From a virus: a stretch of DNA of 22,959 nucleotides. The stretch covers positions 1-22,959 of the IMG/VR virus record IMGVR_UViG_3300031237_000038; one strand, 5' to 3'. This document shows, piece by piece, positions 1 to 15,021 of this stretch. Below the pieces are notes generated by a model. That model saw nothing but the letters and a program-made list of their open reading frames with translations, did not search any database and was not told the origin of the DNA. The position numbers and the translations under genes were made by a program. How positions within the stretch are numbered: the stretch's first letter is position 1; the number at the start of each line of letters is the position of its first letter.

Positions 1-174
1 CGCGTGGCGGAACAGTTGCCGGTATTCGCCGTGGATGGGGATGAAATACTTCGGCCGCACCAGGTTGAGGATCATCTTCAGTTCTTCCTGGCTGGCGTGG
101 CCCGAGACGTGGATGGGGCCGGCGGCGCCGCTTTCGTAATACACCAGGGCGCGCCGGCGGAACATGTGGTCAAT
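1..174 (-). pseudogene. rnj: Ribonuclease J, interrupted internal fragment (host gene)
   Basis: Ribonuclease J is a metallo-beta-lactamase-fold exo/endoribonuclease used in RNA decay and maturation. Reading from base 174 downwards gives an open frame containing PIHVSGHASQEELK and PKYFIPIHGEYR, the signature of the stretch just after the beta-CASP domain; HVSGHAS is among the most conserved strings of the family. The frame runs off the window at base 1, so the C-terminal part lies outside. On its 5' side similarity ends after the codons for IDHMFRRRALVYY. The next codons (Pro, Ala, Pro, Pro, Arg) do not fit the family, and an in-frame TAG follows at 190-192. The N-terminal half must therefore be elsewhere, most likely beyond the far end of the prophage. 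The family call is firm. That the gene was split by prophage insertion is an inference from the repeats that begin 20 bases away. Confidence 0.85.
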
Positions 175-262
175 TGGGGCTGGCGGGCGCTATTTGTCAG
201 TGCAAAGCTAGTTACGGTGTCAGTAAAGCGGGAGCTGCATGTCAGTAGAGCCCAAAAGCGTT
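175..262 (+). repeat. Putative transposase-binding repeats at the prophage right end
   Basis: TGTCAG occurs at 195-200, 218-223 and 240-245, always in the same orientation, at intervals of 23 and 22 bases. The match extends rightwards as TGTCAGTGCAAAGC, TGTCAGTAAAGC and TGTCAGTAGAGC. Direct repeats about two helical turns apart, next to an abrupt break in a host gene, are what transposase sites look like at the ends of Mu and of Tn7/Tn5053-type elements, whose termini begin 5'-TG. Candidate terminal dinucleotides are TG at 175 and TG at 181; 175 agrees best with the loss of RNase J similarity. The role is inferred, since the partner end is not in the window. Confidence 0.7.
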
Positions 263-445: not shown

Positions 446-1219
446 TCAGAAGTTGCGGATCAGGAGCTCGGTGCGACGCGCGCCGCGGCCGCATTTCCCT
501 CCCAGCGAGTAGGTGATTTTCAGCCGCTCGGTGGTCCAACCGCGCCGGCGGTAGAGCTTAGCGATGCGCGGGTGGTCCTGGTAGCTGAGCAGCCACTTCC
601 CCTTCACGGTGGCCAGCGCCTGGGCGAGCTCCTCATGCTGCTCCCAGCTCATGCGGCTGAAGTAGTCGTCTTTGCGCGTCGAAGGGTAGGGCGGGTCCAG
701 ATAAAACAGCGTGTGCGGCCGGTCGTATACCGCGAGGCAGCGTTGCCAGGGCAGGTTCTCGATGGCCACTTTCTCCAGGCGGCCGCTGAACTGCTGCGCA
801 TGGAAGTAAAGTCGCGAGAGGTTCAGTGTAATCGGCTGCGTCGTGGACGTGCCGAAGCAGCGCTCCTCGCGCCGCCCGCCGAAGCAGAGCCGCAGCACGT
901 AGTAGAAGCGCATGGCGCGCTCCATTTCCGTCTTTCCCTCTTCGAAGCGGCGGTACTCGTTGAAGAGCTGGCGGCTGATGAGCTCGAGGTGGAACTGCTC
1001 GGCGAACTCCGCGGGCCGATGCTTCAGCACGCGGTAGAAGTTGATCAGCTCGCCGTCCACGTCGTTGATCACCTCCACGCGCGAGGCCTCCTTGCCGAAC
1101 AGAACCCAGCCCGCGCCGCAGAACACCTCGACGTAGCAGCGGTGGTCTGGGAATCGCTCGATGATCTTCTCGCGGAGCCGTGATTTGCCTCCTACCCAGC
1201 GGAGTGGGGCACACAGCAT
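446..1219 (-). CDS. D12-class adenine-N6 DNA methyltransferase (Dam-like)
   Basis: Predicted to transfer a methyl group from S-adenosylmethionine to adenine N6 in a short DNA target. The 257 residues are a normal length for the D12 (MethyltransfD12) family. In order, I see an N-terminal motif X-like segment PLRWVGGKSRL (residues 5-15), the S-adenosylmethionine-binding motif VFCGAG (32-37), the acidic VINDVDGELI strand (50-59) and the catalytic motif DPPY (175-178). The motif order (X, I, IV) is that of Dam-type alpha-class enzymes. The ATG at 1219 has GGAGG four bases upstream. No restriction enzyme gene adjoins it, so it is probably a solitary phage enzyme that marks packaged DNA against host restriction. 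It is the last gene before the phage end, the place occupied by mom in Mu, although the chemistry is unrelated. Confidence 0.93.
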   Translation of the reverse strand: MLCAPLRWVGGKSRLREKIIERFPDHRCYVEVFCGAGWVLFGKEASRVEVINDVDGELINFYRVLKHRPAEFAEQFHLELISRQLFNEYRRFEEGKTEMERAMRFYYVLRLCFGGRREERCFGTSTTQPITLNLSRLYFHAQQFSGRLEKVAIENLPWQRCLAVYDRPHTLFYLDPPYPSTRKDDYFSRMSWEQHEELAQALATVKGKWLLSYQDHPRIAKLYRRRGWTTERLKITYSLGGKCGRGARRTELLIRNF

Positions 1220-1372: not shown

Positions 1373-1651
1373 CTACTGTAAACCTTCGAGCAGCTCTTGC
1401 CGGCGCAACTTCGATTCCGCCATCACCGCCGCGTATCGGATTGCCGCGTCGATGTCGGCCTGCGCCTGGGCCTGGTCATAAACAGCCGGGAGTGGCGCAT
1501 CGGCGGGGCCCAGAGTAACAGTGTGCTCATGCCGATGCCCGCCGAGAGAAGCGATCACGCGCACCACGCCGGCTTGTTCATCCACCAGGGCCTCCACGTC
1601 CACGGGCACATCTTTGGTGCCGATCCGTTCCGTCTTCGCGATCATTTTCAT
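1373..1651 (-). CDS. Small tail-end protein of unknown function
   Basis: The 92-residue product starts with an ATG (1651-1649) that overlaps the TGA of the tail-tip gene as ATGA, so it is very probably translated by coupling. A second Met follows at residue 3. The first two thirds look like a small beta-rich domain with alternating hydrophobic residues around VRVIASLGGHRHEHTVTL. The last third (about residues 58-92, QAQAQADIDAAIRYAAVMAE) is predicted helical and rich in Ala, Gln and Glu. There is no signal peptide or membrane segment. I do not recognise the family. Its place after the tip protein fits a tail accessory or assembly factor, but that rests on context alone. Confidence 0.7.
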   Translation of the reverse strand: MKMIAKTERIGTKDVPVDVEALVDEQAGVVRVIASLGGHRHEHTVTLGPADAPLPAVYDQAQAQADIDAAIRYAAVMAESKLRRQELLEGLQ

Positions 1652-4056
1652 GATTCCGCCTCGATCCATGCTTCGTAGAGTTCGCCCGTCACCGTGCCGG
1701 TGGTGTCGCTCAGGCCCACCTTCGTGAGCATGCGCACCTGCACGCGGCCCGTGTTCTGCGAGACGCCCAGAGTGATGGAGTCGATCATCACGGCGCGCGT
1801 ACTGCCTGAATCCAGCGAGTACACCACCGTGTAGTTCAGGCCGCCATCCGTGCTGTACGAGAGCACCGCCGCGCCCACAGTGCCTCCATCGAGGGAATTC
1901 GTGGGCACGGCGCTTTTGATTTTCAGCTTCAGGGATTTCCATGGCTGGAAGGAGCCCGGGACCTGGCTGAGCGTGAGTGTGGCGCTCTTGTTGACTGTCC
2001 CGCCGTTGACGGACTTGGTGGCCTTTGAGATCTCGTCCTGGTCGTAGGCATTGCCCTGGTTCGACCAGTTGCTCTCTCCCCCGGTGGTGGCGTCGGCGTG
2101 TGTCCCCGGAAAGAATTTGTAGAGCGCACCGGTTTGCGCGCCCACGCCGCCATCGTTGTTCCCGAGGGTATCGCTGGCGCCGTCGCGCGGCGTGAGGATC
2201 GAGCCCACTAGGAAGCGGCCCTCCTGCAGCGCGTTCTCCTTGGTGGTGAAGGCCTCGAAGGTCACGCTGCCGCCCGCCAGGCTCGGGTCCTTGTAGGCGA
2301 TGAAGTAGAGCGTGTTGAACGAGAGCGCCGTGATGCTTCCGGAGCTGATCGACTTCTGCCCCACCTGCGAAATCTCCATCGTGAACGCCGCTATGCTCAC
2401 CGTAGCCGTAGCCCCGGCATCCGTGCCCGTCAGCGGATTCGAGCGCGGCCGGTATGCATAGTTTGCCGCGCCAGTCACAGCCGGCAGGCCACCGCCCGGA
2501 AGCGAGGGCACAGCGGCCTGCTGCGCGCCGGCAACATCGCTCAGGATGGATTCGTCGTACTCTTCGCCGGCGATCTCCACTTCACCATCGGGCAGCAGGC
2601 CCATGTTCACGATGGTGAAGTCCTTGGTATTCGCCGGGTCCAGGTCCTGGCTCTTGAGCGTGGTGATCCGGTCCCCGGGTAGCAGATCCCGCAGCCCCGC
2701 GATGGGCAGCGCGCGCAGCGCCACCTGCTTCTCCAGGTCCAGGTTGCGGCCCTTGATGTACTTGACGATGCGTTCCGCGCGCTCCGCCGTCTGATTGTTC
2801 AGCTCCAACTCCTCGCTGAGCACGCGGCCGGTCTCCTCCTGCAGGGGCTCGTCTTCCGCGACCTTGGACCCGTCCATGAAATGCACCGCTGGATTCGAGT
2901 ATTTGCGCCCGCTCTGGTCCGCGCTGAAGGCCGTCTTCAGCGTCATCGAAGTGTCGCTGGCCACAGAAGCCACTTCGCGCGCCTGCCCCACCTGCGCCCC
3001 GTCCTCGAGTTGGCATACCTCGTCGGTCCGAAACCAGGACAGGAACTTCGTGGCCACGCCGGTCACCGCCGTCCCTGTCGTGCTTAAAGTTCCCTGGCCC
3101 ACTCCTGATTCCAGGTTCCGGTAGCGCGCCAGGTACCGGCTGGCCAGATCGGTCACGTCTTTGTCGCCGTGTTGCAGGGTGCCGGCGGCGATCTGGTCCG
3201 GGCCGATGGTCACCTGGCTCGAACGGGATTTATCGAGGTAGGGCGCGAGCTTGCCGCCGAACTCCAGGGAGTAGCCACGGCCCAGAACGTTCACCACCAG
3301 GTTCAGCGCGCGGATCAGCTCCGTCTCGTTCACGAAGGCCGGGTGCGCTTCGCAGCGCTTGGTGCCCTGCGGCGTGGCAGCATCGCAATCGGTGCGATAC
3401 GCGTCGTAAGCGGTGAAGTTGAGTTTCGCCTTCTCCGCGGTGGTCAGTGCCTCGTTCACCAGCCCGCGGGGCTTCAGAAACGCGCTGATCAACAGGTCCG
3501 CCCAGATATCGGCATTGTTTGCGGAGTACTGATAGGCCGTCTGCGTGCCGCTCGAATCGAACACGCGCACGCGGCGCGTCTTGAAGATGCCCACGATGCG
3601 AAAGCTGGCGTCAGGCGCGCGCGGGTCGGGGTCCAGCTTGAACGCGGAATAAGCGGTGCGCGAGAAGGTGAATCGGTCGGCGAAGGCCGCCGGCCACAGG
3701 GAGCAAATCTTCTGGTTACGCGTGGCCGGATCTGTCTCGACGCCCAGCTCTCCGTCGAGCCCGGGATGGAAATGATATTTCGCGGTGTTGGTGTGGTCGA
3801 ACAGGCGCCCGTTCACCCAGATCAACACGGGCCCTTCCCACTCATCTGCGCCATGCGCCAGAAAAAGAATCGTCTTGCCCTGGTCCGCGCCGCTGGGCAC
3901 CTCGTACTGGAAGATCCCGTTTCCGCCCACCAGGTGCAGCCCGTGGGCGATGGCGATGGGTCGCCCGAGCGCCGCGTACAGGAGCTGGAGCTTTTCCGTC
4001 TGCCCGGCCAGGGGCAGCGCCGTCAGTACCGACCCGGGAAGTCCAATGCTGGCCAT
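1648..4056 (-). CDS. Tail tip / central hub and receptor-contact protein
   Basis: This 802-residue protein is the largest after the tape measure and is the last big tail gene, the usual place of the tip protein of long non-contractile tails. Roughly residues 1-330 look like a hub-type domain. A helical, charged segment around residues 410-450 (EELELNNQTAERAERIVKY) recalls the part of gpJ-like hubs that precedes the C-terminal domains. From about residue 535, a NPLTGTDAGATATVSIAAF-like beta domain, often seen in phage tip proteins, is followed by Thr/Ser/Gly-rich beta segments to the end. This tail-end part is the probable host-contact region. The start overlaps the hub gene stop as TGATG (ATG 4056-4054). 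No second fibre gene or fibre chaperone follows. The function is assigned from position and general make-up, not from a catalytic motif. Confidence 0.8.
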   Translation of the reverse strand: MASIGLPGSVLTALPLAGQTEKLQLLYAALGRPIAIAHGLHLVGGNGIFQYEVPSGADQGKTILFLAHGADEWEGPVLIWVNGRLFDHTNTAKYHFHPGLDGELGVETDPATRNQKICSLWPAAFADRFTFSRTAYSAFKLDPDPRAPDASFRIVGIFKTRRVRVFDSSGTQTAYQYSANNADIWADLLISAFLKPRGLVNEALTTAEKAKLNFTAYDAYRTDCDAATPQGTKRCEAHPAFVNETELIRALNLVVNVLGRGYSLEFGGKLAPYLDKSRSSQVTIGPDQIAAGTLQHGDKDVTDLASRYLARYRNLESGVGQGTLSTTGTAVTGVATKFLSWFRTDEVCQLEDGAQVGQAREVASVASDTSMTLKTAFSADQSGRKYSNPAVHFMDGSKVAEDEPLQEETGRVLSEELELNNQTAERAERIVKYIKGRNLDLEKQVALRALPIAGLRDLLPGDRITTLKSQDLDPANTKDFTIVNMGLLPDGEVEIAGEEYDESILSDVAGAQQAAVPSLPGGGLPAVTGAANYAYRPRSNPLTGTDAGATATVSIAAFTMEISQVGQKSISSGSITALSFNTLYFIAYKDPSLAGGSVTFEAFTTKENALQEGRFLVGSILTPRDGASDTLGNNDGGVGAQTGALYKFFPGTHADATTGGESNWSNQGNAYDQDEISKATKSVNGGTVNKSATLTLSQVPGSFQPWKSLKLKIKSAVPTNSLDGGTVGAAVLSYSTDGGLNYTVVYSLDSGSTRAVMIDSITLGVSQNTGRVQVRMLTKVGLSDTTGTVTGELYEAWIEAES

Positions 4057-5240
4057 CAGAGCATCACCAGCCCATCCTTGCCGTTATCTCCCCGCACGCC
4101 GCCACCCCCGACACCGCCGCCCGGGCCGCCCCCTCCGCCAGGGGTGTTCGAGACGGCCGCGCTCACCGGCGGAACCAGCGTGGGGAATCCGTTGTACCGG
4201 TTCTCCTGCGCGCGGTCGAGACAGGCGCCGTAGTCCAACGTGCATTTCCCGAAGAGCACGCGGAAGACGCTCGTGCCATCCGGCGCCGGACTGAAGTCCG
4301 TCTCCGCATCGTCCAGATTGAAGCGCCCGCCGGTAGTGTTCGAGCCGACCTTCTTCAACTGGCCCGCGCCGGTCCCCGAGATGATGCGCACGTAGTCGCC
4401 TTTGTGCTCGTCAGTCACGAGCGCCAGGCCGGTGTCCTCGATGTACCGCGCAGCACCCCCGGTGGCCGTCGTTTCGAGTTTCGCCGCGGTGGCCGTGGTC
4501 AGCGGCTTCGGCGCGCCCTTGGTCACCGCATAGACCTTGAACTTCACCGTGCCCGTGGGCGTGGTCCGCCACGGCGTATAGAACGTCAGCCGCGTGGCCG
4601 TGTTGGTTTGCACCCGGATCACCTGGCCCTTGCCCGTGGTGCCCTCGGTGACGAACACCAGCTTGTTGATGTGCGCATCCACAGTCATGGCCAGCGTCGA
4701 GTCCTCGATGTAATTGGCGCCCACCGCGGACGCCGTGCGCTGCGCCACGTCCTCGCTCAGCGTGCCCGTCGCGCGGTCGTAGCCGCACTCGGGTGAATTG
4801 AATTTCCAGGTGCATTGCTGGGAGTAAACACGCGCAGGGACCTTGAAGCCGCCGGGGCTGAGCTCGCCCGCCAGGCGGAATCGGGCCGTGCCCGCCAGGC
4901 GCTGCGGCTCGCGCAGGATGAACGTGCCCACCAGGAACTCTTCCTCGATGCCCAGCAGGAGCTGCTTCACTTCGCAGTGCGCGCCGTTGAAGGCCTTGGC
5001 CTCCACAATCACCCGCAGCGCGTCATCCAGCAGTAGGGTCATCGCGCCGTCGCTCGCTTCATTCGAGCGCGAAAGGCGCAGCGTGTCCGTCCATTGCAGA
5101 TTGCGCGTGTAGGTCACGCCCAGGAAGGTCAGATCATCTTCGGCGAAGGTGTACACGCTGCCATCGCGCGCGGTGATCTTCACCGCCCACCAGAATGGGC
5201 CGATGTAGTTCTTCGCCGCCGTGGAAAGTCCGCGCGGCAT
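4056..5240 (-). CDS. Tail hub protein, DUF2163/BR0599 family, lambda gpL-like, with inserted repeat domains
   Basis: The 394-residue protein has the N-terminal beta domain of DUF2163/BR0599 tail proteins (residues about 12-135) and the family ending CTLDYGAC followed by RYNGFP. The cysteines are C143-X8-C152 and C333-X6-C340. From memory, lambda gpL uses the same two spacings to hold an iron-sulphur cluster, but with only about 22 residues between the pairs. Here 180 residues intervene. They contain two related copies of a domain, each starting YIED, at about 177-238 and 266-330 (offset 89 residues). A Gly-rich tail (about 367-384) and GDNGKDG close the protein. The ATG at 5240 lies two bases after the previous stop. 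The family is reasonably sure; the metal cluster is an inference. Confidence 0.82.
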   Translation of the reverse strand: MPRGLSTAAKNYIGPFWWAVKITARDGSVYTFAEDDLTFLGVTYTRNLQWTDTLRLSRSNEASDGAMTLLLDDALRVIVEAKAFNGAHCEVKQLLLGIEEEFLVGTFILREPQRLAGTARFRLAGELSPGGFKVPARVYSQQCTWKFNSPECGYDRATGTLSEDVAQRTASAVGANYIEDSTLAMTVDAHINKLVFVTEGTTGKGQVIRVQTNTATRLTFYTPWRTTPTGTVKFKVYAVTKGAPKPLTTATAAKLETTATGGAARYIEDTGLALVTDEHKGDYVRIISGTGAGQLKKVGSNTTGGRFNLDDAETDFSPAPDGTSVFRVLFGKCTLDYGACLDRAQENRYNGFPTLVPPVSAAVSNTPGGGGGPGGGVGGGGVRGDNGKDGLVML

Positions 5241-5242
5241 CT

Positions 5243-6040
5243 TCAGTACACCACTTCCAGGGCATCCGCGAGGATGGAGTTGCCGCTGCTCGAGGCGTTC
5301 TTCGTGTTGGTGGCCTTGATTTTCACCCGGTGAATGCCCAGGTTCACGTTCAGCCTACTGAATACAGCCGCGCTGGCCTGGCCCGACCCGGCGTAGAGGT
5401 CCACATTGCCCAGAGAAACGCCATCGAGGAAGAGTTCGAAAATCCCCAGGTCCACGTCTTTTTGCGCCCAGACGCGGAAGCCGTAGCCCGAGTACAGCCA
5501 TTGAAAAGCGTCCGTTGTGTTGGTGTTTGCGTTCACCCGTCGCTGCCCGCCGTGTGCGCCGCCGCTGGCCCCCGCGGTCCACGTACCGCCCAGCACACTG
5601 GCATCCGCGTGGTCTTCTTCCTTGAAGTAGCTGGCGTGTCCCGCCGTGGGGTCCGGATAGTTTGCGCCCGGCAGCGCGCGGCCCACGCCCTCCAGCAGGC
5701 GCACGTTGAAATCGTAGCTATCGTTCAGGACGTTTCGCTCGGGCAGCGAATCATCCAGCCACTCCACGGGAAAGCTGCGCGTGAGGTACGTGCCGGCGTT
5801 GTTCAGCCAGGTCTTGTGGTCGAAGCGGAAGAAGCTGGCCGCGAAGCGCCGCTTCCAGTCGCGGAGCTGCTCCACCTGGTCCGTTGAGCGCCCGCGGAAG
5901 GGCAGCGTGAAGATGCGTTGCGGCACCTGGCGCTGCACCAGTATGCGCGCGCGGCTCTCTGACTCCATGCGCAGCACTCCGTCGCGGTCCTCGATCTCGA
6001 CTTCGTAGTCCGGCGTCAGTGGGAAAACATCTGTTTCCAT
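5243..6040 (-). CDS. Distal tail protein with C-terminal carbohydrate-binding-like domain
   Basis: This 265-residue product sits directly after the tape measure, where siphoviruses keep the distal tail / minor tail (gpM-like or DUF2460-like) protein. Residues 1 to about 125 fit such a domain: RIFTLPFRGRSTDQVEQLRD, then RFDHKTW and an SFPVEW strand near its end. Residues about 145-265 form a second domain reading GGTWTAG, GYGFRVWAQKD, DLGIFELFLDG, then GIHRVKIKATN and a final LADALEVVY. This resembles jelly-roll carbohydrate-binding modules attached to glycosidases. It would decorate the tail end and may bind host surface sugar. The start ATG (6040-6038) is preceded by GAGGACGCAGAG, which serves as ribosome-binding site and also matches a dispersed repeat. 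No catalytic residues for sugar cleavage are apparent. Confidence 0.75.
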   Translation of the reverse strand: METDVFPLTPDYEVEIEDRDGVLRMESESRARILVQRQVPQRIFTLPFRGRSTDQVEQLRDWKRRFAASFFRFDHKTWLNNAGTYLTRSFPVEWLDDSLPERNVLNDSYDFNVRLLEGVGRALPGANYPDPTAGHASYFKEEDHADASVLGGTWTAGASGGAHGGQRRVNANTNTTDAFQWLYSGYGFRVWAQKDVDLGIFELFLDGVSLGNVDLYAGSGQASAAVFSRLNVNLGIHRVKIKATNTKNASSSGNSILADALEVVY

Positions 6041-6052
6041 CTCTGCGTCCTC
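6041..6052 (+). repeat. Short copy of the CTCTGCGTCCTC repeat (family A)
   Basis: CTCTGCGTCCTC fills almost exactly the 10-base gap between the tape measure stop and the next start codon. Read on the minus strand it gives GAGGACGCAGAG, the only Shine-Dalgarno-like sequence for the distal tail gene. It is 12 bases long, so a chance match to the longer copies at 18512, 16821, 10826 and 11053 cannot be excluded. Confidence 0.4.
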
Positions 6053-8495
6053 AGAACAGCCTGGAAAGCCCCTTGGCCTCGCGCTTCCTGTTCAGCTCCG
6101 CGGCCATCGCATCCGCCACGTCGCGGCCGATTCTTTCCCCATCTCCGCTCGCTCCGTTCACGACGATTGCTCCGGGCGCGATGTTGATGTACATTCCGGC
6201 GCCGCCGCCCACGCGCCCGCCGGTATCCAGATGCGGCGCGCCGGTGGCCCGCAATGCGCGGTCGATCTGCTGCGGACCCACCATCATCTGCTGCCGCGGA
6301 TTCAGCACCACTTCGCGGTCGTGCAGGATCGCGGGCAGCGCGCCTCCGGCTGCGGGAGCGTGCACGCGGCCCCCGCCGGCGAACTCCGGCACGGCGTTGA
6401 AGGCGCGCAGCCCTCCGGTCAGGCCGCGCGTGCCTTCCAGCTCGTTGATCCGCTTTATGGCCGAGTCGATGTGCGGGTCCATGCGCGATTTCCAGCCCAC
6501 CTTCTTCATCGCCTCGTTCACCTGCTGGCGCACCTGTTCGAGCTGGCCAATCGCGGAGAGATAATCGACCTTGTGCAGCCGGTAGGCGGACTCGATTTGC
6601 TCGATGGCGCGGAAAGCGTCGCGCTCGATCTGGTCGCGCACCTTGCGCTTCTTCCCGCGTCCCAGGAAGCCGAACAGCAGACCGAGCAGTGGGCCCAGCG
6701 CCAGGCCGATCGGACCGAACAGGAATCCAACGGACGAGAGGAGTAGCGAAGGAGCGACGGCCGCCGCGATGGCCAGCGCGCCCGCGCCAATCAGTCCGCC
6801 GGAAATAGCTCCCTTCAAGGGCGAGCCGAAACCGATTTTCCCCCCGGCCAGCATCAGCCCCGCGGGAATCAGTGCGGCCAGGCCGCCGAGTCCGCCTGCT
6901 CCGGCGGCGAGTCCCGTCGCTGTTGCGCCACCCGTGGTGCCCGTAGGCAGCCCCACTCCGCCGGTGCCTGCGCCGGCCAGCGCTGGGCCCAAGCCAAAAT
7001 TCGTGAAGTCGCCAGGCGCGAGCTGCAGGCCGGTTCTTGCATTCGGATTGAAGGGCGCCGTTCCACCAGGCCCGATGATCCCGAAGCTGCCTCCGCCACC
7101 TCCGCCGCCGAAACCGAAGAGTGAGCGCAGCGCGCCCAGGAATCCTCCGCCGCCGCCACCTCCGCCGCCCACGGCCCCGCCGGTAGCCGTGGCAGCGGCC
7201 ATCGTACGCTGGCCCAGCAGCCATCCAGCCACCATGCGCGACACCATGCTCAGGAAGCGCCCGAGGATCGCTGTCCAGATCTGGTTCATCACATCCTTCC
7301 AGCTTCGCGCCGTCAACACAGCGCGCTGGAAGAAGCTTTCAATCCCCTGGGCCATGCGTTCATAGGCCTGCTGGGCCTTCTCCGCCATTTCCAACTGAGC
7401 ATTCCGAAGACGCGCGGTCTGTTCGATCGCGCGGTCCGTCTGTTCACTCATCTCCTGCAACCACTTGGGAACGCCCTCCACTTCCGGCGGATTAGCGATG
7501 ACCTTCTTGGCCTCTTCGTTTAGTTTCCCTAGGAGCGCAGTGTTTCGCCCGTGAAGCTCCTGTACCTCCAGGAGCGTTTTGCGCCACGCGTCCGCGAATT
7601 TCTCTGCGGCCTTCACTCCCTCGTCCGCCAGCGACGCACTGATTTCCTTGCCCGTGTTCCTCGACACCTGCCCAAGTTGCGCAACCTCAGCGGTGGCCTG
7701 GGCAATTGCTGGCTGCAGGGTGGCCATTCTCTCCAATGCCCGCACCGCGGCCGCTGTAGGTTCTTCCCGGAAGCCCGTGCCCTCCGGCCCGGCCTGCACG
7801 GTTTGGGTTTGCTTTGACAACGCAAGCAGTTCGCGCCATTCCTTCTGAAGATCAGCGAGCTTTTTTTTCGCCTCTTCGATGGTACGATTCTGTTGCTCTT
7901 GAACCTTTGTGAACCGTGGGATTCCCTGTAGGCCGATCAGGTCGTATTCGTCCCTGAGTTCCTTTAACCTCTTCACCTTATCCGCCAGGATCGGGTTCAG
8001 CTTAGCCTCACTCTCCATGACCGCCTTGAGCGCGCCGTTCCAGTCGAACATCTTGTCGGTCACCTTGCCGATTTCATCGCTCAGGCTGATGATGATGGCC
8101 ACCGCCGCAGTCACCGCGGTGAACTTGAAGGCGGTGCTGAGAGCGGGGCCGATTAGCTGGGACTGCGAGATCAGCTTCTTCATCTCGCGCGGCAGCGGCA
8201 CGCCCAACTGAAAGGCCAGCAGGTCCGCCGCGTCGCGCGCGCCGTGGATGTCGTGCGTGGTTCTCTGTAGCTGCTGGCTGGCTGTGGCCATCTGCCGTTG
8301 CGAAGTCTGCAGCCGGCTTTCGAGCAGCGCCTCAGCAGTGCCCAGACCCGCCGTGGCTTTTGTGAGCTGCTCGCGGGTAATGCGCCCGGCGAGGTGCTGG
8401 CGGTTCAGATTGGCCAGGGCGATGGAAATCTTGTCCAGTCGCGCGGCGGCTTCCGCGTCGCCCACCACTTCGAATTCGGTTCTGGCTTTCGCCAT
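6051..8495 (-). CDS. Tail tape measure protein
   Basis: At 814 residues this is the longest product and lies between the tail assembly genes and the distal tail gene, the standard tape measure slot. Residues 1-110 are largely helical and polar. A hydrophobic helix follows at about 117-140 (FTAVTAAVAIIISL), then long charged helices to about 420. Residues about 440-485 are Gly-rich with runs of eight or nine glycines. A long hydrophobic Ala/Gly/Leu region spans about 530-610, as in tape measures that enter the membrane, then a basic KKRKVRDQ segment. The C-terminus has the common tape measure ending HDREVVLNPRQQMMVG. If fully helical at 1.5 angstroms per residue, the tail would be about 120 nm long. 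The first third looks less GC-rich than its neighbours. The start follows the previous TAG directly, with AGAGGA five bases upstream. Confidence 0.93.
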   Translation of the reverse strand: MAKARTEFEVVGDAEAAARLDKISIALANLNRQHLAGRITREQLTKATAGLGTAEALLESRLQTSQRQMATASQQLQRTTHDIHGARDAADLLAFQLGVPLPREMKKLISQSQLIGPALSTAFKFTAVTAAVAIIISLSDEIGKVTDKMFDWNGALKAVMESEAKLNPILADKVKRLKELRDEYDLIGLQGIPRFTKVQEQQNRTIEEAKKKLADLQKEWRELLALSKQTQTVQAGPEGTGFREEPTAAAVRALERMATLQPAIAQATAEVAQLGQVSRNTGKEISASLADEGVKAAEKFADAWRKTLLEVQELHGRNTALLGKLNEEAKKVIANPPEVEGVPKWLQEMSEQTDRAIEQTARLRNAQLEMAEKAQQAYERMAQGIESFFQRAVLTARSWKDVMNQIWTAILGRFLSMVSRMVAGWLLGQRTMAAATATGGAVGGGGGGGGGFLGALRSLFGFGGGGGGGSFGIIGPGGTAPFNPNARTGLQLAPGDFTNFGLGPALAGAGTGGVGLPTGTTGGATATGLAAGAGGLGGLAALIPAGLMLAGGKIGFGSPLKGAISGGLIGAGALAIAAAVAPSLLLSSVGFLFGPIGLALGPLLGLLFGFLGRGKKRKVRDQIERDAFRAIEQIESAYRLHKVDYLSAIGQLEQVRQQVNEAMKKVGWKSRMDPHIDSAIKRINELEGTRGLTGGLRAFNAVPEFAGGGRVHAPAAGGALPAILHDREVVLNPRQQMMVGPQQIDRALRATGAPHLDTGGRVGGGAGMYINIAPGAIVVNGASGDGERIGRDVADAMAAELNRKREAKGLSRLF

Positions 8496-8834
8496 CTATT
8501 TCCTCTGTCCGCCTCTGGCGGACGGTGAATTCAGGTCCGCGCCGCACTCCGTGCAGGTATAGAGCGCGTCGGTGGCCACCCCGCACCGCCAGCACTTGCG
8601 CTTGGCCCGAGCGCCCTCCATCACTTCATGCAGCAGCCGCAGCCCCTCGGCCTCATCCGCGGTCAGCGCCGCGCCGTTCAGCACGCCGGCATCGAGCCCG
8701 CTGCGCAGCTCCCACAGGTGCTCGATCCACCGCGCCAGGTCCGGCGGCAGCGCCACTCCCCCCGGCGAGGAGAGCGCTTTCTCCAAGGCTGCGCGGATCG
8801 CCGGATAATCCGCGCTTGTGGCAATCCATCTCAT
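8496..8834 (-). CDS. Small zinc-ribbon protein in the tail-chaperone slot
   Basis: The 112-residue product begins in a TGATG overlap with the previous stop, so it is translated by re-initiation. Residues 1-75 are predicted helical. The C-terminus is a zinc ribbon, C81-X2-C84-X9-C94-X2-C97, in KCWRCG and CTECGAD. In many long-tailed phages the second of two genes between tube and tape measure is a tail assembly chaperone fused to the first by a -1 frameshift. Here there is a stop and restart, and an unusual metal site. The last residues (PSARGGQRK) are encoded by a GTCCGCC/GGCGGAC palindrome of a repeated type, so the original C-terminus may have been different. Existence of the gene is well supported; a role in tail assembly is inferred from place only. 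Confidence 0.78.
   Translation of the reverse strand: MRWIATSADYPAIRAALEKALSSPGGVALPPDLARWIEHLWELRSGLDAGVLNGAALTADEAEGLRLLHEVMEGARAKRKCWRCGVATDALYTCTECGADLNSPSARGGQRK
8507..8523. repeat. GTCCGCC/GGCGGAC palindrome (family C)
   Basis: A perfect seven-base stem, GTCCGCC and GGCGGAC, with loop TCT. It lies inside the last codons of the zinc-ribbon gene, just before the tape measure start. Related palindromes are at 15007-15021 and 22808-22827. Confidence 0.65.
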
Positions 8835-9541
8835 CAGGCCGCTTGCTCTGCCGCCGGCGCCTCCGGAGGCTCGAACAGCGCCACCACGGCCGCCTGCTTA
8901 TGCAGCGGGTCCATGCGCCGCTTCATCTCGTCCAGGCCGGAGTAGCCGCAGTAGCCGAATGCTTCCACGATCAGCGCGTCCCACAGCCGGCAGAGTGATT
9001 CAAGCTTCAGGCCGATGCGCACCCGCGAGACGTTTTGCTCCTTCGTGCCGCGCGGCCGGAAGTACGAAATACTGACACGCTTGTAGGCCAGTTGCTCGTC
9101 GCGCGAGGGGACGCGGAAGGTGTGGCACAGCCGGTCGTGCACCCGCTCGTTCCACGCCGCCTCGAGCACCACCGTGCGGCGCTCCGCGGAAAAGGCATAG
9201 AGGTCCGGGCCTTCGCTCACATACACTTCCTGCAGCAGGGCCACGGCGCCGGCAATCACTGGCAGGGGCATGCATAGCTTCCAATCGCCCTCCGGGTAGC
9301 CCTCCACGCGCTCGATGCGCTTCTCCCACAGCTTGAGCGCGGCCACTTCGGCCTTCGATTCCGGCGTCCACGATTCGCCGCGCTGCACCATTTCCTGTTC
9401 GAGCGCGGCCACGTACTCGATCCAGTCTTCCTGGGTGATGGGTTTGAAGAAATGACGGCCGGTGCGCCCGGCAAACTTCACGCGCACCACGCGCTCGCCG
9501 GCCGCCAAATCCAAAGCTGGTTTTTCGCTTTGTTCAGACAT
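8834..9541 (-). CDS. Probable tail assembly protein between tube and tape measure
   Basis: The 235-residue product lies between the tail tube and tape measure genes, where tail assembly chaperones are usual. It has no signal peptide or membrane helix. Visible stretches include RTGRHFFKPITQEDWIEY (about residues 26-43), predicted helices around 45-80, and a basic/aromatic middle YKRVSISYFRPRGTKEQN. The C-terminus is Ala/Glu/Pro-rich. I chose the ATG at 9541 because GAGGAGGA lies three bases upstream; a GTG at 9568 is in frame but has no better site. Lambda gpG-type chaperones are usually shorter, and I found no slippery heptamer near the end, so this is not a clear gpG/gpGT pair. The specific family is not recognised. 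Confidence 0.72.
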   Translation of the reverse strand: MSEQSEKPALDLAAGERVVRVKFAGRTGRHFFKPITQEDWIEYVAALEQEMVQRGESWTPESKAEVAALKLWEKRIERVEGYPEGDWKLCMPLPVIAGAVALLQEVYVSEGPDLYAFSAERRTVVLEAAWNERVHDRLCHTFRVPSRDEQLAYKRVSISYFRPRGTKEQNVSRVRIGLKLESLCRLWDALIVEAFGYCGYSGLDEMKRRMDPLHKQAAVVALFEPPEAPAAEQAA

Positions 9542-9663
9542 CGCTCCTCCTCGTTTCCGATAATCCACGAGGCAGGGAGCAAGGCCTGCCGTGCTGCAGC
9601 TTCCCGAGAGGCAAGGCGGGAAGATTTTAAATGGCCCGATGAGCCGATGGGCCGATGGCCCGA
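9542..9663. other. Repeat-filled gap between tail tube and assembly genes
   Basis: This gap contains two hairpins. One is GGCAGG/CCTGCC at 9571-9576 and 9585-9590 with an eight-base loop. The other is TTCCCG/CGGGAA at 9601-9606 and 9617-9622 with a ten-base loop. A CCGATG-type repeat follows at 9631-9666. Neither hairpin has a T run on its minus-strand side, so I do not call a terminator, though either could stabilise an mRNA end and favour production of tail tube protein. Confidence 0.5.
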
Positions 9664-9666
9664 TTA
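9631..9666. repeat. CCGATG tandem repeat (family B, copy 1)
   Basis: Tandem units of the form (A/G)NCCGATGG: ATGGCCCGATG, AGCCGATGG, GCCGATGG and CCCGATT. The repeat ends at the stop codon of the tail tube gene. A second copy with the same unit is at 17161-17197. Confidence 0.65.
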
Positions 9667-10779
9667 CACCAGGTACGATGCGAAATCGTTGTCGGTGATG
9701 ATGGTGAACGGCGAATCGGCCACGGCCACGTCGCGGTACACCTGGTTCTCGCTGACGCCCACGCTGTACACCGCGCCGTTATCCTCGAAGCCCACCGGGG
9801 TTTCGCTGATGCGCACGTCGGGGAAGCGCACCGTCAGCTTGTGGTTCGACGTGCCCGTGCCGGCCACGATGCCCGAGTCGAACGTGAACTTCAGCTCCTT
9901 GCGCGCCTGCTGCTCGTTGGTCAGGCTGAGCATGTCGTCGATCAGGTCGCGGTTGGCGCGGTTCACGAAAAGGCCCATTTGGATCGACGCCTGGCGACTG
10001 GTGAACCACAGCATGCTGCGGAATTTTCCATCCGCGGGCGTGGTGGCGTTGGGCACATAGCCCTCGGGCAGCGCCAGGTTCTGCGTGAAGCGCAGGCTCA
10101 CTTCGCGGATGCGTTCGGTGATGTCCGTCAGCGCGCCGCCCTTGGCGCCGTACTCCACCTTCATGGCCTGCCCGCTGAAGAGCACCTGGCTCGAAAGCGC
10201 CACCAGGGTGATGGCCGTGGCCTCGTCATATTTGCCCGAGCCCACCAAATCCATGGCCATCTGGATCATTTCGCCGCGCCGCGAGGAAACGCTGAAGCCG
10301 GCCAGGGCCATCGAGGGATACAGGCGCTTGATGCGGCCGGCATCGGCCGAGCCGGTATCGATGTACACCGGGATCACCTTCACCTGGCGCACGCCCGAGC
10401 CGGCCAGCGGATTCGTGGGCCGCGAGGTGTGCGTGTAGTGTCCGGTGGCACCTTCCTGCACGCTGGTCACCTGGCTGGCAAACAGCGCGGCCGCCAAGCC
10501 CACCAGCCAGGAGTTCATGGCGAAGGGCAGGCTCATGTTGCAGTCGCGCAGGATGTGCCGCTCGCCTGCTCCATCGGGCCACTCGTGCCCGGTGAAGGCC
10601 ATGGCGCCTTCCTCCGCGCGCACCACGGAGATCTCGCCGATGGTGGCCGACTTCGGGCGGAAGGATTTTCCGGCGTTCAAGTTTGTCTGGTTGGTGGCGG
10701 TCACTCCGGGATAGGTGCCCTGCGCGATGTGCGTGAACTGCGCCCGCAAATCCTCACTGCGAATGACTTCGAATGCCAT
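9664..10779 (-). CDS. Major tail tube protein
   Basis: The 371-residue product is placed after the connector genes and before the assembly and tape measure genes, the slot of the tail tube subunit. It is beta-rich, has no membrane segment and contains repeated strand patterns such as VRQVKVIPVYIDTG, KYDEATAITLVALSS and the ending VYRDVAVADSPFTIITDN. No sheath gene precedes it, which separates this tail from the contractile tail of Mu. The ATG at 10779 has AAGGAGAG six bases upstream, one of the stronger sites in the operon and in keeping with an abundant structural protein. The assignment rests on position, size and fold impression, not on a diagnostic motif. Confidence 0.8.
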   Translation of the reverse strand: MAFEVIRSEDLRAQFTHIAQGTYPGVTATNQTNLNAGKSFRPKSATIGEISVVRAEEGAMAFTGHEWPDGAGERHILRDCNMSLPFAMNSWLVGLAAALFASQVTSVQEGATGHYTHTSRPTNPLAGSGVRQVKVIPVYIDTGSADAGRIKRLYPSMALAGFSVSSRRGEMIQMAMDLVGSGKYDEATAITLVALSSQVLFSGQAMKVEYGAKGGALTDITERIREVSLRFTQNLALPEGYVPNATTPADGKFRSMLWFTSRQASIQMGLFVNRANRDLIDDMLSLTNEQQARKELKFTFDSGIVAGTGTSNHKLTVRFPDVRISETPVGFEDNGAVYSVGVSENQVYRDVAVADSPFTIITDNDFASYLV

Positions 10780-10791
10780 CGTGGTCTCTCC

Positions 10792-11031
10792 TTAAAGGGC
10801 CGTCTTGGGCTCTTCCGTCCTGGAGCTCTGCGCCCTCTGCGCCCTCTGCGGTTCATCTGTTTCTTCCAGGATTCCCTGGTCCTTCAGCATCGCGTCCCAT
10901 TCCGCGCGCGTGACGCGCTCCGCCTTGCCGGCCTCGAATTTCCAGTGCATCGGTCCGATGACCACCGTCGAGCTGCCAAAACCTTCGCGCAGCCTCACCC
11001 ACACCCAGTCTTCCCTCTGCCGGTCGGCCAT
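10792..11031 (-). CDS. Small tail-connector region protein of unknown function
   Basis: The product is 79 residues from the ATG at 11031, chosen because GGAGGAG lies six bases upstream; an in-frame ATG at 11052 would add seven residues. The body (residues about 10-55, DWVWVRLREGFG then GPMHWKFEAGKAERVT) looks like a compact beta domain with several Trp. The last 20 residues, EPQRAQRAQSS and beyond, are encoded by a CTCTGCGCCC tandem repeat and are probably not part of the original protein. It sits between the DUF1834 gene and the tail tube, where Mu has small genes of the DUF2635 type, but I cannot confirm that family. Confidence 0.7.
   Translation of the reverse strand: MADRQREDWVWVRLREGFGSSTVVIGPMHWKFEAGKAERVTRAEWDAMLKDQGILEETDEPQRAQRAQSSRTEEPKTAL
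10826..10857 (+). repeat. CTCTGCGCCC tandem repeat (family A), in frame in a tail gene
   Basis: CTCTGCGCC is repeated almost perfectly two to three times and ends CTCTGCGGTTCATC. Read on the minus strand it encodes PQRAQRAQ near the end of the small tail-region protein. It belongs to the same family as the copies at 18512-18549 and 16821-16845. Confidence 0.7.
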
Positions 11032-11052
11032 AATTTTCTCCTCCAAATTCAT

Positions 11053-11079
11053 CTCTGCCCCTCCGCGTCCTCTGCCTCT
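11053..11079 (+). repeat. CTCTGC/CGTCCTCTGC repeat (family A), intergenic
   Basis: The sequence CTCTGCCCCTCCGCGTCCTC followed by TGCCTCT fills the space between the DUF1834 stop and the next gene. It is a diverged copy of the same family, in the same orientation as the copies at 10826 and 18512. Confidence 0.55.
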
Positions 11080-11560
11080 ATTCCCCCAGCCAGATGCCGT
11101 CGCAGCGGATCTCCAGGCTATAGAGGAACCGCCCGCGCTCGTCCGTGCCGTTGTACTCGTCGGGCATCAGCCGACAGTAGGCTGCCGCGCCCTCCGGCAG
11201 TTCGAGCTTGCGCCCGGCGAAGATGCGCTTCAGCCCCTCGATCAATTCGTACGCGCCCATCTCCGTGGGCGTGCCCTCGCGCGTGGCTTGCCCTCCGCGC
11301 AGCCCCTCCACCACGAGCTGCAGCAGGAACGAATAGCGTGCGTTGTACAGGTGCCAGGTGTCGTTCTCCGGTTCGTAGCTCCCGCCCAGGTAGATCAGCA
11401 GAATGGCCGGCGCGTTGATGATCACCTGCTCGCGCGCGAAATCCACGTTCGCTGAGGACACGGTCTGAATGTTGGCCGTGGGCACCTCGAGCGTCGGCGC
11501 CGCTTCCTTGAGCGCCGCGAGGATGGCCGCTTCCACGTCGTGAATTCGCGCCTGGCTCAT
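11078..11560 (-). CDS. Mu gp37-like connector/tail protein (DUF1834)
   Basis: This 160-residue protein follows the gpG-like gene with an ATGA overlap (ATG 11560-11558). It matches the DUF1834 pattern: an N-terminal helix starting VEAAILAALKEA, the strand pair INAPAILLIYLGGSYEP, then YNARYSFLLQLVVEGLRG, and a late ELIEGLKRIFAG helix. Mu gp37 belongs to this family. By position after the gp36-like protein it probably acts at the head-tail joint or in tail completion; its exact role is not settled for the family. There is nothing odd in its length. The family match is from memory of the motif layout. Confidence 0.8.
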   Translation of the reverse strand: MSQARIHDVEAAILAALKEAAPTLEVPTANIQTVSSANVDFAREQVIINAPAILLIYLGGSYEPENDTWHLYNARYSFLLQLVVEGLRGGQATREGTPTEMGAYELIEGLKRIFAGRKLELPEGAAAYCRLMPDEYNGTDERGRFLYSLEIRCDGIWLGE

Positions 11561-12177
11561 TCACTTTTTCTGATCGCCTCCCGCAGATGCTCTTCCACGA
11601 TGGCCGTGCCTTCCTTCTCGGTCAGCGCCGCGCCCGGCAGATAACTGCGCTTGGGCAGGAACATGTTCCGGTGGTGCGCCTTCACGAAACCAACCCCGCT
11701 AAAAATCTTCAGGCGGCGGCGCCGGCTGCGCGTCAGGTCTCCGAAATCGGAGCTGCTGATGGGATCATCAAAGCTCAGGGATTGATCGCGGCTCTTCACT
11801 TTCCGGCTGTGCCCTCGCACCATCACGCCGCGGTCGTCCACCCCTTCCTGATGAGCCAGCGCGTAGGGGAGAGTGGATTCCACGAATGCTTTGCTTCCCT
11901 GGACGCCGCTGAAGAGCGTGAGACGCAGCGCGCCCCTGGCCTGCAGGATCTGGCGCGCCGCTCCGAAGATCTTCGCCTTGCGCAGGGCGTAGCGGGGTGA
12001 AAGCTCCGCCCATGGCTGGCCCTCCGGACTCTGCTGCTTGCCGAAAGCCTGGCGCGCCGTCACCAGCATCCAATCGGCCACCGACTTGAGCACGCCCTTG
12101 ACGTTGCGGATGACGCCGGTGAGCGCGCCGATCTGCCGGCGCACCGCCTCGACGTCGAGCTTCACGTTGACGATCAT
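11557..12177 (-). CDS. Mu gpG-like virion morphogenesis protein (Phage_tail_S)
   Basis: The 206-residue product matches the phage virion morphogenesis family (Pfam PF05069). An N-terminal helix is followed by the diagnostic FGKQQSPEGQPWAELSPRYA (about residues 45-64), then the LRLTLFSGV and PYALAHQEGV strands. Family members help complete tails and join them to heads. The start directly abuts the previous stop (0-base gap). In Mu, G lies next to F, upstream of the protease, whereas here it follows the gp36-like gene, as in other mosaic Mu-like phages. The insert between residues about 115 and 170 is rich in Arg, Ser and Asp. Confidence 0.88.
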   Translation of the reverse strand: MIVNVKLDVEAVRRQIGALTGVIRNVKGVLKSVADWMLVTARQAFGKQQSPEGQPWAELSPRYALRKAKIFGAARQILQARGALRLTLFSGVQGSKAFVESTLPYALAHQEGVDDRGVMVRGHSRKVKSRDQSLSFDDPISSSDFGDLTRSRRRRLKIFSGVGFVKAHHRNMFLPKRSYLPGAALTEKEGTAIVEEHLREAIRKSE

Positions 12178-12606
12178 CTAAAAGCCCTCGAGCTTCTCAT
12201 CGTCGAACACTTCCTGCTCGTCGGCGTCCGTATGGTCGGGCTTTACCACGTCCATCTCGCTGGCCTGCTTCTTCCCGGGCTGGTCGAGCTGCGCCTTCGC
12301 CGCGGAAACGTCGCGCAGGAAACGCATGGCCTCGTCGTATTCGCTCTTCTTCACATCCTGCTGGCCGCGTCCTTCGTACAGCTTGTACACGGCCAGCACC
12401 ACGCAGAGGTCCTTCACCTGGTCGCTCACCACCAGCGGGAGGGTGTAGCGCCCGGCGGCGTAGGAATCGATGATGCCCGTGGCCTTGGCCAGCGCCTCGG
12501 TGATCTTCTCGTCGTCCACTTCGCCGCCCTGGTCGAAGTCGGTGAGCTGGACGAGTTGCGCGTTCGTCACGCGCTTCTGAATGTCGGCTTTTGTGGCGTA
12601 CGCCAT
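12178..12606 (-). CDS. Mu gp36-like connector protein (DUF1320)
   Basis: The 142-residue protein shows the DUF1320 hallmarks: the start MAYATKADIQKRV, the middle KITEALAKATGIIDSYAAGR followed by YTLPL, and a helix KDLCVVLAVYKLYEGRG. In Mu this is gp36, taken to be a head-completion or connector protein. The C-terminal 35 residues are very acidic and lysine-rich, as in a disordered tail. It starts three bases after the gp35-like stop with only a weak ribosome site, so translation is probably coupled. Confidence 0.9.
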   Translation of the reverse strand: MAYATKADIQKRVTNAQLVQLTDFDQGGEVDDEKITEALAKATGIIDSYAAGRYTLPLVVSDQVKDLCVVLAVYKLYEGRGQQDVKKSEYDEAMRFLRDVSAAKAQLDQPGKKQASEMDVVKPDHTDADEQEVFDDEKLEGF

Positions 12607-12609
12607 CGC

Positions 12610-12879
12610 TTAATTCTTGGGCGGCTCTTCCTTCTTGGGTTCGCTCTCTGCCTTGAACTTCTCGGCGGCTTCGCGCTCGATCTTCGAGAGCTTCTCGCGC
12701 TCCGCGTCTTCGGCCTTTTCGGCGGCGGTGCGCGGCCGCGACTTCAGGTCGGCCGGGGCTTCGCTGGAAACGGCCCACGGCATTTGCGCGGCCTGCTCTG
12801 CGGTGAGCTCGATGCTGTCGCCCGGCCTGAACATCTTGCCGCCTTGCAAGATGTTGGACTTCACGGTGAACTTGGCCAT
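12610..12879 (-). CDS. Mu gp35-like small protein (DUF7210-like)
   Basis: The 89-residue product starts at the ATG at 12879 with GGAGG seven bases upstream; upstream in-frame codons lack a site. Residues 1-38 hold a short beta domain, AKFTVKSNILQGG then FRPGDSIELTAEQAAQM, typical of the small DUF7210-like proteins coded beside capsid genes in Mu-like phages. Residues about 45-89 are a charged, lysine/glutamate-rich helix ending in EPKKEEPPKN. Its function is unknown. The gene stands between the secreted protein and the gp36-like gene. Confidence 0.78.
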   Translation of the reverse strand: MAKFTVKSNILQGGKMFRPGDSIELTAEQAAQMPWAVSSEAPADLKSRPRTAAEKAEDAEREKLSKIEREAAEKFKAESEPKKEEPPKN

Positions 12880-12956
12880 TTTGATTCCTCCACTGCAAGA
12901 TGCAGGGGAAGTGGTCCTCGAGGGGTCGGGGGCCACTATCCTCTGGACCCTGCGAA
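12880..12956. other. Short gap after the secreted protein gene
   Basis: This 77-base gap contains an imperfect inverted repeat, AGTGGTCC with GGCCACT (about 12909-12935), and GGTCC facing GGACC further on. There is no T run and no gene. It looks like another intergenic repeat unit, seen once in this window. Confidence 0.35.
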
Positions 12957-13448
12957 CTAATTCGTCAGCGCGCGAACGCCGGTGCCTGCAGCTTCTGTAT
13001 TCAGGCACAGCGCCTTCGCCGCCGGCACCAAGATGCCCAGCGGGATGTACCCCGGCAGCAGCGAGTTCGAAGTCGCGCCGCTAATTGTTAGCAGCGTGGT
13101 CGTACCCGTCCCGCAGTTGGTTCCCGTCCCATAGACCAGGGTTACGGCGCCGGTGGCCGCCACGGATTTGGTGACGACGATCCCGCGCACGTAAATGGAG
13201 AGCCCCGCAGCAGGGGCTGCCACCACTTGCGTGACCGTGGTATTCGTCACCTCCGCAGAGAGCGTGCTGACCTCGCCGGTCTGAATCACGCCCGTGCCGT
13301 TCGCAGTGACCCCGTCGCCCACGAAGCGCGTGCGGGCCATCTGCTGATCTCCGGACCTGCCTTGCGCCTGCGGCGACGGCCCCCACGGCTGAACCACCAG
13401 GATGGCCACCGTGAGCAGCGCCAACAGAGAAAACAATCGAGTCTTCAT
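12957..13448 (-). CDS. Protein with a signal peptide encoded within the head gene cluster
   Basis: The 163-residue product begins MKTRLFSLLALLTVAILVVQ, a basic N-end plus hydrophobic core, followed by PWGPSPQAQG with a likely signal peptidase I site after AQA (about residue 29). The rest is Thr/Gly/Ala/Val-rich and beta-like. The last 80 residues (IYVRGIVVTKSVAATGAVTL, GTNCGTGTTTLLTISG, ending in AKALCLNTEAAGTG) recall capsid-decoration or fibre domains that I have seen in phage structural proteins, with two cysteines that could pair outside the cytoplasm. A strong GGAGGAG site precedes the ATG. Export of a protein coded next to the capsid gene is odd: it could act on the host surface, or an original virion gene may have gained a leader. 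I do not recognise a function. Confidence 0.8.
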   Translation of the reverse strand: MKTRLFSLLALLTVAILVVQPWGPSPQAQGRSGDQQMARTRFVGDGVTANGTGVIQTGEVSTLSAEVTNTTVTQVVAAPAAGLSIYVRGIVVTKSVAATGAVTLVYGTGTNCGTGTTTLLTISGATSNSLLPGYIPLGILVPAAKALCLNTEAAGTGVRALTN

Positions 13449-13478
13449 GTTCCGTTTCTCCTCCTCGAGAGAATTTGC

Positions 13479-13513
13479 AGGTTGGAAGCCCGCCCTTTGC
13501 GAACTTCCAACCT
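13479..13513. repeat. Ten-base-pair hairpin downstream of the capsid gene
   Basis: AGGTTGGAAG (13479-13488) and CTTCCAACCT (13504-13513) form a perfect inverted repeat around a 15-base loop. It stands in the 87-base gap between the capsid stop and the secreted-protein gene. With no T run it is not a standard terminator, but it could protect the capsid message at its 3' end. Confidence 0.6.
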
Positions 13514-13535
13514 CACACTTCAGGCCCCGGCCTTT

Positions 13536-14474
13536 TTAGGCCACGGCGGACTTGATCAGGTACAGCGCTTCCACCGCCGTGATCTTCTGGTGGTAGTAGT
13601 CGTCCACGCCGATGATGTCCGACTTCGCGGTCGGATCCGGGTGGCGGCCCTTCACCACGCCGATGCCGCCGCTCGTGCCCGGCGCGCCGGTCCAGCGGAA
13701 GTTCTTCACCCCGCTGATGTCCTGCGCGCTCGGGGAGGGCGAGACGTAGCCGACGATGGCATTCTTGCCCCACACGAAGCTGATCACGCCGGCTTTGCTG
13801 CGCTTCACCGCGGCGCCCACCCAGAAGTTCTGGACGCCGAAGTAGGCGGCCAGGTCGGCATCGGTCAGGGCGCGGTCCTGGTGGTATTGGAACGTCGCGC
13901 GGATCGCCGGGTGCCAGCGCAGCTTGGCGAACACCTGCCAGCCCATGGCGATGAAGTTGCCGCGCACGCCGGACTCGACGATCTTGTCGAGCGCGGTCTG
14001 AATATCCACGCCCGGGGTGGAGGCGTCGTTGGACCACTGGCTGGCGCCGGCCAGTGTGGTGTTGTTGGTCACCTGCGCGGTGTCGCCGAGCATGGTGGCC
14101 AGTTCGTCCTCGCGCTGCAGCAGGATCTTCTCCATCATGGTCTGCACCGCGTCCCGCTCGATATCCCCCGCGTCGGCGTAACCCTGGCGGTCTTCATCGG
14201 CGATGCGCGATTGCAGCGCGTGGCTCTTGCAGTTGTAGCTGTCCGTGGAGAGCGTGATGCGGATGGCCTCCGCCGGCGCGCCCGTGGCGCGGAGCTGGTA
14301 TTCCAGAAGCTCCTGGCTCTCGCGCCCGAAAATCCAATACTTGTCCGTCTGCCGGCCCACCGGAACCGCCGGCGCGATGCGGTCCGCGATCAGTTCGTTG
14401 TTCACGAACTTTTTCGCGAAGTTGGTCAGCATCGCGTCCTGGTGTCCGACAAGGGGAGCTGCAACAGGTCCCAT
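13536..14474 (-). CDS. Major capsid protein (HK97-fold, Mu gpT-like position)
   Basis: The 312-residue product follows the decoration gene in the order protease, decoration, capsid. It has the features of Mu-type capsids: an N-terminal segment LTNFAKKFVNNELIADRIAP, the YWIFGRES strand, a helical spine from about 110 to 145 with EDELATMLGD, then VRGNFIAMGWQVFAKLRWHP and a late beta part with GVDDYYHQKI and EALYLIKSAVA. The start is the ATG at 14474 with AGGAGG six bases upstream. An ATG further up at 14495 lies inside a CCCCGAC palindrome and would hide that site. The strong ribosome site and the hairpins on both sides fit high expression. The fold itself is inferred. Confidence 0.88.
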   Translation of the reverse strand: MGPVAAPLVGHQDAMLTNFAKKFVNNELIADRIAPAVPVGRQTDKYWIFGRESQELLEYQLRATGAPAEAIRITLSTDSYNCKSHALQSRIADEDRQGYADAGDIERDAVQTMMEKILLQREDELATMLGDTAQVTNNTTLAGASQWSNDASTPGVDIQTALDKIVESGVRGNFIAMGWQVFAKLRWHPAIRATFQYHQDRALTDADLAAYFGVQNFWVGAAVKRSKAGVISFVWGKNAIVGYVSPSPSAQDISGVKNFRWTGAPGTSGGIGVVKGRHPDPTAKSDIIGVDDYYHQKITAVEALYLIKSAVA

Positions 14475-14494
14475 TTCGATTCCTCCTGCCGTCA

Positions 14495-14510
14495 CCCCGA
14501 CGTGTCGGGG
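14495..14510. repeat. CCCCGAC/GTCGGGG palindrome before the capsid start
   Basis: CCCCGAC, two bases (GT), then GTCGGGG make a seven-base-pair stem whose minus-strand 3' edge lies eight bases before the AGGAGG of the capsid gene. As RNA it would be a 5' hairpin that leaves the ribosome site free. Confidence 0.55.
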
Positions 14511-14547
14511 CTGCCGGCTCTCATTTCATGTCAGCGGGCCGTGCAGG

Positions 14548-14578
14548 CCTGCGGCGCCCCGCTGTGCGGCGCCGCAGG
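14548..14578. repeat. Strong 11-base-pair hairpin between decoration and capsid genes
   Basis: CCTGCGGCGCC (14548-14558) and GGCGCCGCAGG (14568-14578) are exact reverse complements around a nine-base loop. It is the strongest hairpin in the window and starts within ten bases of the decoration gene stop. It lacks a T run, so it may be an intergenic repeat of host type or an RNA processing or stability element. Confidence 0.65.
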
Positions 14579-14587
14579 GAAAGAGGT

Positions 14588-14989: not shown

Positions 14990-15006
14990 GCTGCTCTGTC
15001 CTTTCT

Positions 15007-15021
15007 TCCGCCTTTGGCGGA
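15007..15021. repeat. TCCGCC/GGCGGA palindrome (family C)
   Basis: TCCGCC, loop TTT, GGCGGA, in the 77-base gap between the scaffold/protease stop and the decoration gene. It has the same arms as the palindromes at 8507-8523 and 22808-22827 but a different centre. Confidence 0.6.

Follow-up and report, generated by a model that had tools for sequence, protein, structure and literature searches.

Three evenly spaced copies of TGTCAG lie near one edge of a 22,959-base viral sequence (the window, which is a complete IMG/VR record), between the broken end of a host gene and a block of phage late genes, and raise the question of whether they mark the end of a transposable prophage and which enzyme would recognise them. 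The initial annotation, made from the letters alone, had read them as transposase-binding sites that mark the right end of a transposable prophage, at the edge of a Mu-type late gene block. Comparison with related sequences makes us confident that an acidobacterial transposable prophage of Mu type, inserted in an RNase J gene, has its right end (attR) at positions 175-246, with boxes there for its own MuA-like transposase.

The phage-host boundary in an RNase J gene

Window positions 1-174 (minus strand) hold a 58-codon fragment of a phage-interrupted host gene. It matched acidobacterial RNase J (TIGR00649) over its whole length, with 81% identity in G021, a genome of the Terriglobia (Acidobacteriota), and 60-72% identity in four further genomes. 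DNA identity was 140/168 inside this stretch and almost none in the bases directly outside it, and the codon preceding the match, which is ATG in four of the five intact RNase J genes, reads CCA in the window. As the RNase J homology runs to 174 and ends there, the phage starts at 175 with 5'-TG. The break at 174/175, located by the intact genes, agrees with the initial annotation, which had put the first repeat 20 bases past the point where the host gene breaks off; in keeping with that reading, RNase J is continuous in related genomes. The tip of the phage, TGGGGCTGGCGGGCGCTATT (175-194, plus strand), is predicted to form the outer half of the first of the three transposase sites and aligns with the tips of the relatives G020 and G025 (TGATGCTGCGGCCGCTCGA) and G146 (TGGGGCTCCGGGAATTACG). 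The last five host bases, TCAAT (170-174), would recur at the left end if the target duplication is 5 bp.

The repeat array and the genes beside it

TGTCAG was found at 195, 218 and 240 on the plus strand (steps of 23 and 22 bases), exactly where it had been annotated, and the core common to all three boxes is TGTCAGT: R1 at 195-201, R2 at 218-224 and R3 at 240-246, starting 20, 43 and 65 nt from the tip. TGTCAG is not over-represented in the window (6 hits vs 8.5 expected) and is the only 6-mer there with three copies at such steps, besides its one-base shift GTCAGT. The triple was unusual in simulations: a Markov-simulated window held a mean of 0.29 6-mer triples of such spacing, any such triple fell within a given 100 bases in 108 of 200,000 simulations (~5e-4), and any 7-mer triple appeared in 4 of 300 simulated whole windows (~1%).

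The late gene block occupies 1648-20728 on the minus strand, includes tail genes, and has orthologues in matching order in relatives. It encodes the small (20102-20728) and large (18558-19967) terminase subunits, a Mu portal protein (17195-18508), a Mu F-like protein (16209-17198), a capsid protein (13536-14495), Mu Gp36 (12178-12606) and a virion morphogenesis protein (11557-12177). The portal, F-like and Gp36 proteins matched Pfam Portal_Mu, Phage_Mu_F and Phage_Mu_Gp36 above cut-off, as expected of a Mu-type transposable phage. Among described terminases, most of the nearest came from transposable siphophages such as B3, with identities of about 30-35%. The gene closest to the right end (446-1219, minus strand) encodes a D12-class adenine DNA methylase of the Dam family (Pfam PF02086), which holds the same terminal place in the relatives G017 and G025; in Mu, the DNA modification gene mom sits at the equivalent place by the right end. 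No transposase, including one of the Tn5053 kind, was recognised among the scanned window genes; the phage's own left end and early region lie outside the record. An open reading frame at 22346-22948 encodes 200 amino acids with a lipoprotein-like signal (LVVSLAGCGG) and matched no Pfam or NCBIfam family.

Relatives of the phage

Relatives were obtained by several routes. G001 (IMGVR 3300005532_000022) came from a scan for the TGTCAGT triple and was the only one among 16 triple-bearing records tested to have a Mu-transpos_C domain; a Portal_Mu search over the same 16 records gave zero matches and, as the controls likewise gave zero, carries no weight. In all, 81 contigs had TGTCAGT triples; the majority seem to hold unrelated repeats, in many cases exact tandem ones, and were set aside. 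G017 (IMGVR 3300009537_004357) and G018 were found through the portal protein of the window, and G020 (3300046817_001299), the Terriglobia metagenome-assembled genome (MAG) G021 (JAIQEV01), G024 and G025 through transposase and terminase alignments. As it was the terminase that first led to G024 and G025, with the array seen only afterwards, these two are independent tests of the repeat. Structural proteins shared with the window were encoded in matching order in G001, G017, G018, G020, G024 and G025; in G021, terminase and transposase lie on separate contigs. When 396 acidobacterial genomes were surveyed with the transposase, G146 was found, along with copies that are more distant.

A tail-protein scan of viral contigs gave no relative, and a scan of genome contigs with a two-row transposase alignment gave no match, the terminase alignment later giving the Terriglobia MAG. 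A strict search for the repeat pattern in 89 genomes of the family of this MAG gave no match, and a looser search in the 396 acidobacterial genomes gave three. Of these, only G146 proved to be the end of an element, and two were rejected because they resemble coding sequence or tandem repeats. No TGTC clusters were found around the distant transposases in G204, G098, G083, G161 and G282, and a blind scan of G204 for TG tips and duplications gave no convincing ends. The virus records G017 and G025 (far end) were trimmed at gene borders, namely the methylase stop and the starts of MuA- or MuB-like genes, and G017 has therefore lost both phage ends.

Right ends compared

In G001, G020, G024, G025 and G146 the three boxes start exactly 19, 41 and 62 nt from the tip, the spacing in the window (20, 43 and 65 nt) being 1-3 nt wider than in all five. 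As the relatives keep nearly the box spacing of the window, the array is a real phage end, known in kind but with a sequence code peculiar to it. The tips of G020 and G025 are identical, TGATGCTGCGGCCGCTCGATGTCAGTAAAACGGCCG, and the DNA outside them is wholly different, which fixes the position of the tip; the differing flanks would fit a phage that transposes replicatively and packages host DNA at variable sites. Alignment of 18 boxes from the six right ends revealed a repeating unit that extends beyond TGTCAG and whose outer half approximates CGGxCGCT, and the 19-20 nt between the tip and the first core can thus be read as the outer half of the first site. The motif does differ from the Mu sites, as had been remarked from the window, since TGTCAGT with its CGGxCGCT outer half contrasts with the CGAAA-type site of Mu. 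By eye, the tips look similar to those at the right ends of Mu, B3 and BalMu-1, with TGxxGC followed by G/C-rich bases.

Left ends and target duplication

Inverted repeats, which the initial annotation had expected at the far end of the prophage, were present in four relatives (G001, G020, G021 and G146), the far end of the window phage lying outside the record. Each has an inverted box 19 nt from the far (left) tip and a second box 93-117 nt further in, the latter degenerate (TGTCGG) in G020; in three of the four left ends a TGTCCGTTGG box follows 17-18 nt after the second box. The 5'-TG...CA-3' tips and short target duplication that had likewise been anticipated were also found in relatives. 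In G146 both ends were located around 14,489 bp with GTCGT on each side, a 5-bp target duplication shown in this one relative only. The two flanks of G020 do not match and show no target duplication, and probably come from different insertions.

The G146 element (L128:565-15053; C2:163565-178053) lies upstream of an infC-like gene. It has tail tube and tape-measure matches, a regulator, a transposase and an ATPase, most phage genes being gone. As only the tail tube and tape-measure genes remain beside the regulator, transposase and ATPase, it is probably a deleted prophage, and it may still be movable.

A second motif, TGTCCGYTGGATT, occurs near the left tip in G001 (L088:155-330), G020 and G021, once in forward and three to four times in inverted orientation, with the inverted copies at conserved steps of about 64, 30 and 11 nt; two similar copies with the core CCGTTGGATT are found in G146. 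These repeats may be a candidate repressor operator or transposition enhancer. In Mu, the operator/enhancer likewise lies nearer the left end (PMC3562280).

The transposase branch

The transposases of the relatives have a DDE triad that aligned with Mu D269, D336 and E392, and matched PHROG 310, as do MuA and the transposases of D3112, B3 and BalMu-1, and, more weakly, TniA. The nearest transposases in the phage collection searched were only 22-26% identical, and an AlphaFold model had a mean pLDDT of 41, too low to be of use. In a phylogenetic tree, eight acidobacterial transposases formed one group (support 71/76), or seven without G204 (80/91), with the Tn402 TniA falling elsewhere, weakly joined to B3 by long branches. 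By sequence, the acidobacterial transposases are their own cluster within the Mu A family, in keeping with the suggestion that the enzyme might belong to a separate branch; we infer from these relatives that the window phage's own transposase is of the same branch. A gene for a MuB-like AAA ATPase adjoins the transposase gene in G001 and G146, and was the only one identified among the neighbouring genes scanned; in Tn5053/Tn402 elements the expected neighbours are tniB, tniQ and tniR.

The kinship with Tn5053-like elements that had been suggested from the TGTC-type repeats was not upheld. Tn5053/Tn402 elements share with the phage TGTC-type end sequences and a DDE transposase of the same wide superfamily. 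However, the tip of Tn402 begins with TGTC, whereas the phage tip does not, and is set 19-20 nt outward of the first TGTC box. As the transposases also group apart from TniA, in a different branch, a Tn5053 affinity is not supported.

Transposase sites, a second element or regulatory repeats

The TGTCAG boxes are most likely docking sites for the transposase, as judged from their conserved positions at the right ends and the inverted boxes at the far ends of relatives, which together support the array at a Mu-type prophage right end first proposed from the window, with binding itself a prediction. The repeats could instead belong to a separate insertion sequence or a Tn5053/Tn402-type transposon sitting at the phage-host junction, where an insertion would likewise put them beside a host gene, and TGTC-type repeats are known at Tn402 ends. 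We consider this very unlikely: the same array stands at an equal distance from the tip in four other phages of the group, with host DNA directly outside in G020, G025 and G001, and the space between 175 and the methylase gene at 446 leaves no room for a second element. Moreover, none of the scanned window genes was recognised as encoding a Tn5053-type transposase, and the transposase branch is not that of TniA.

It is just as improbable that the repeats are an operator or promoter of a late gene or the methylase gene, and are near the tip by chance. They do lie in a non-coding stretch that could hold regulatory sites, roughly 1 kb downstream of where the last gene starts, and the TGTCCGYTGGATT repeats of the left end may well be regulatory. 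In five relatives, however, the box positions are exact relative to the tip and not to any gene, and the same core is inverted at the left end; G146 retains both sets of boxes though most of its phage genes are gone. Least probable, and scarcely credible, is that the repeats arose by chance or that misassembly produced a chimeric junction. Chimeras can occur in metagenomic contigs at the ends of Mu-like phages because the packaged host DNA varies between particles, but the junction in the window falls, to the very base, at a TG tip such as other phages have, and the simulated frequency of a triple within a given 100 bases was already low with the relatives not yet counted.

If, then, the boxes are transposase sites, a working scheme can be set out with its reaction steps taken by analogy from Mu. 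The phage begins at 175 with 5'-TG, followed by three tandem sites of ~22 bp (outer half roughly CGGxCGCT, core TGTCAGT), and its other end would carry inverted, unevenly spaced boxes, the first at 19 nt from the tip, with one or two others about 95-135 nt further in. We infer that the boxes are bound by the MuA-like DDE transposase, which would occupy three right and two to three left boxes, pair both ends, nick at the CA-3' tips and join these to target DNA cut 5 bp apart, with the MuB-like ATPase presumably choosing and delivering the target DNA.

Comparison with known transposable phages

Mu has three sites at each end, with a spacing that differs between the ends (PMC3562280), and the acidobacterial phages resemble it in having three right-end sites at a step of ~22 bp and uneven left sites (PMC3562280). 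They are also like Mu in their 5'-TG...CA-3' tips, 5-bp duplication and genes for MuA and MuB, and unlike it in a transposase that is only distantly related and in siphovirus-like, B3-type late genes. With the B3 group they share a late block with a related terminase (33%), and the right tip of B3, TGTAGCGCGGCGCG, is similar by eye; however, Pseudomonas phage B3 makes a 6-bp target duplication (PMC8705779), as against 5 bp in G146, and no TGTCAG boxes were seen in the B3 ends.

As far as our searches show, the Mu-type right end is genuine and ordinary in kind, and its sequence and host phylum are new; in the literature on Mu-like prophages in Acidobacteria/Acidobacteriota, of which our coverage was incomplete, no title described such ends. 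These results fix the end of a group of transposable phages that infect Acidobacteriota, and the likely site code of the group's transposase can be read from six right ends. This allows such prophages to be trimmed correctly, records such as G017 losing both ends, and in our view offers ready mini-transposon substrates for a phylum with few genetic tools.

TG and TA tips

Nineteen nucleotides out from the first box, the tips of G020, G025 and G146 read TG. TA stands there instead at both ends of G001 (L088:1-19, where the left tip is the first base of the record, and the last 250 bases of L090) and at the right end of G024 (L168:713-731), where the host DNA beside the tip is probably intergenic. 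Each of the three TA-reading ends also has a TG 3 nt further in, which may instead be the true tip. We hold it evenly balanced whether a terminal switch between TG...CA and TA...TA has occurred inside one acidobacterial phage group with the same TGTCAG boxes and distances. Transposable prophages of Leptospira have TA-TA tips and a 6-bp duplication (PMC8705779); TA tips are perhaps a feature that G001 and G024 share with them, the 6-bp duplication being a difference. A true switch would place a TA-tip case in a host phylum other than that of the known Leptospira case and would offer a natural experiment on the reading of the cleavage tip by a Mu-family transposase; real TA tips would make tip recognition directly testable in this phage group.
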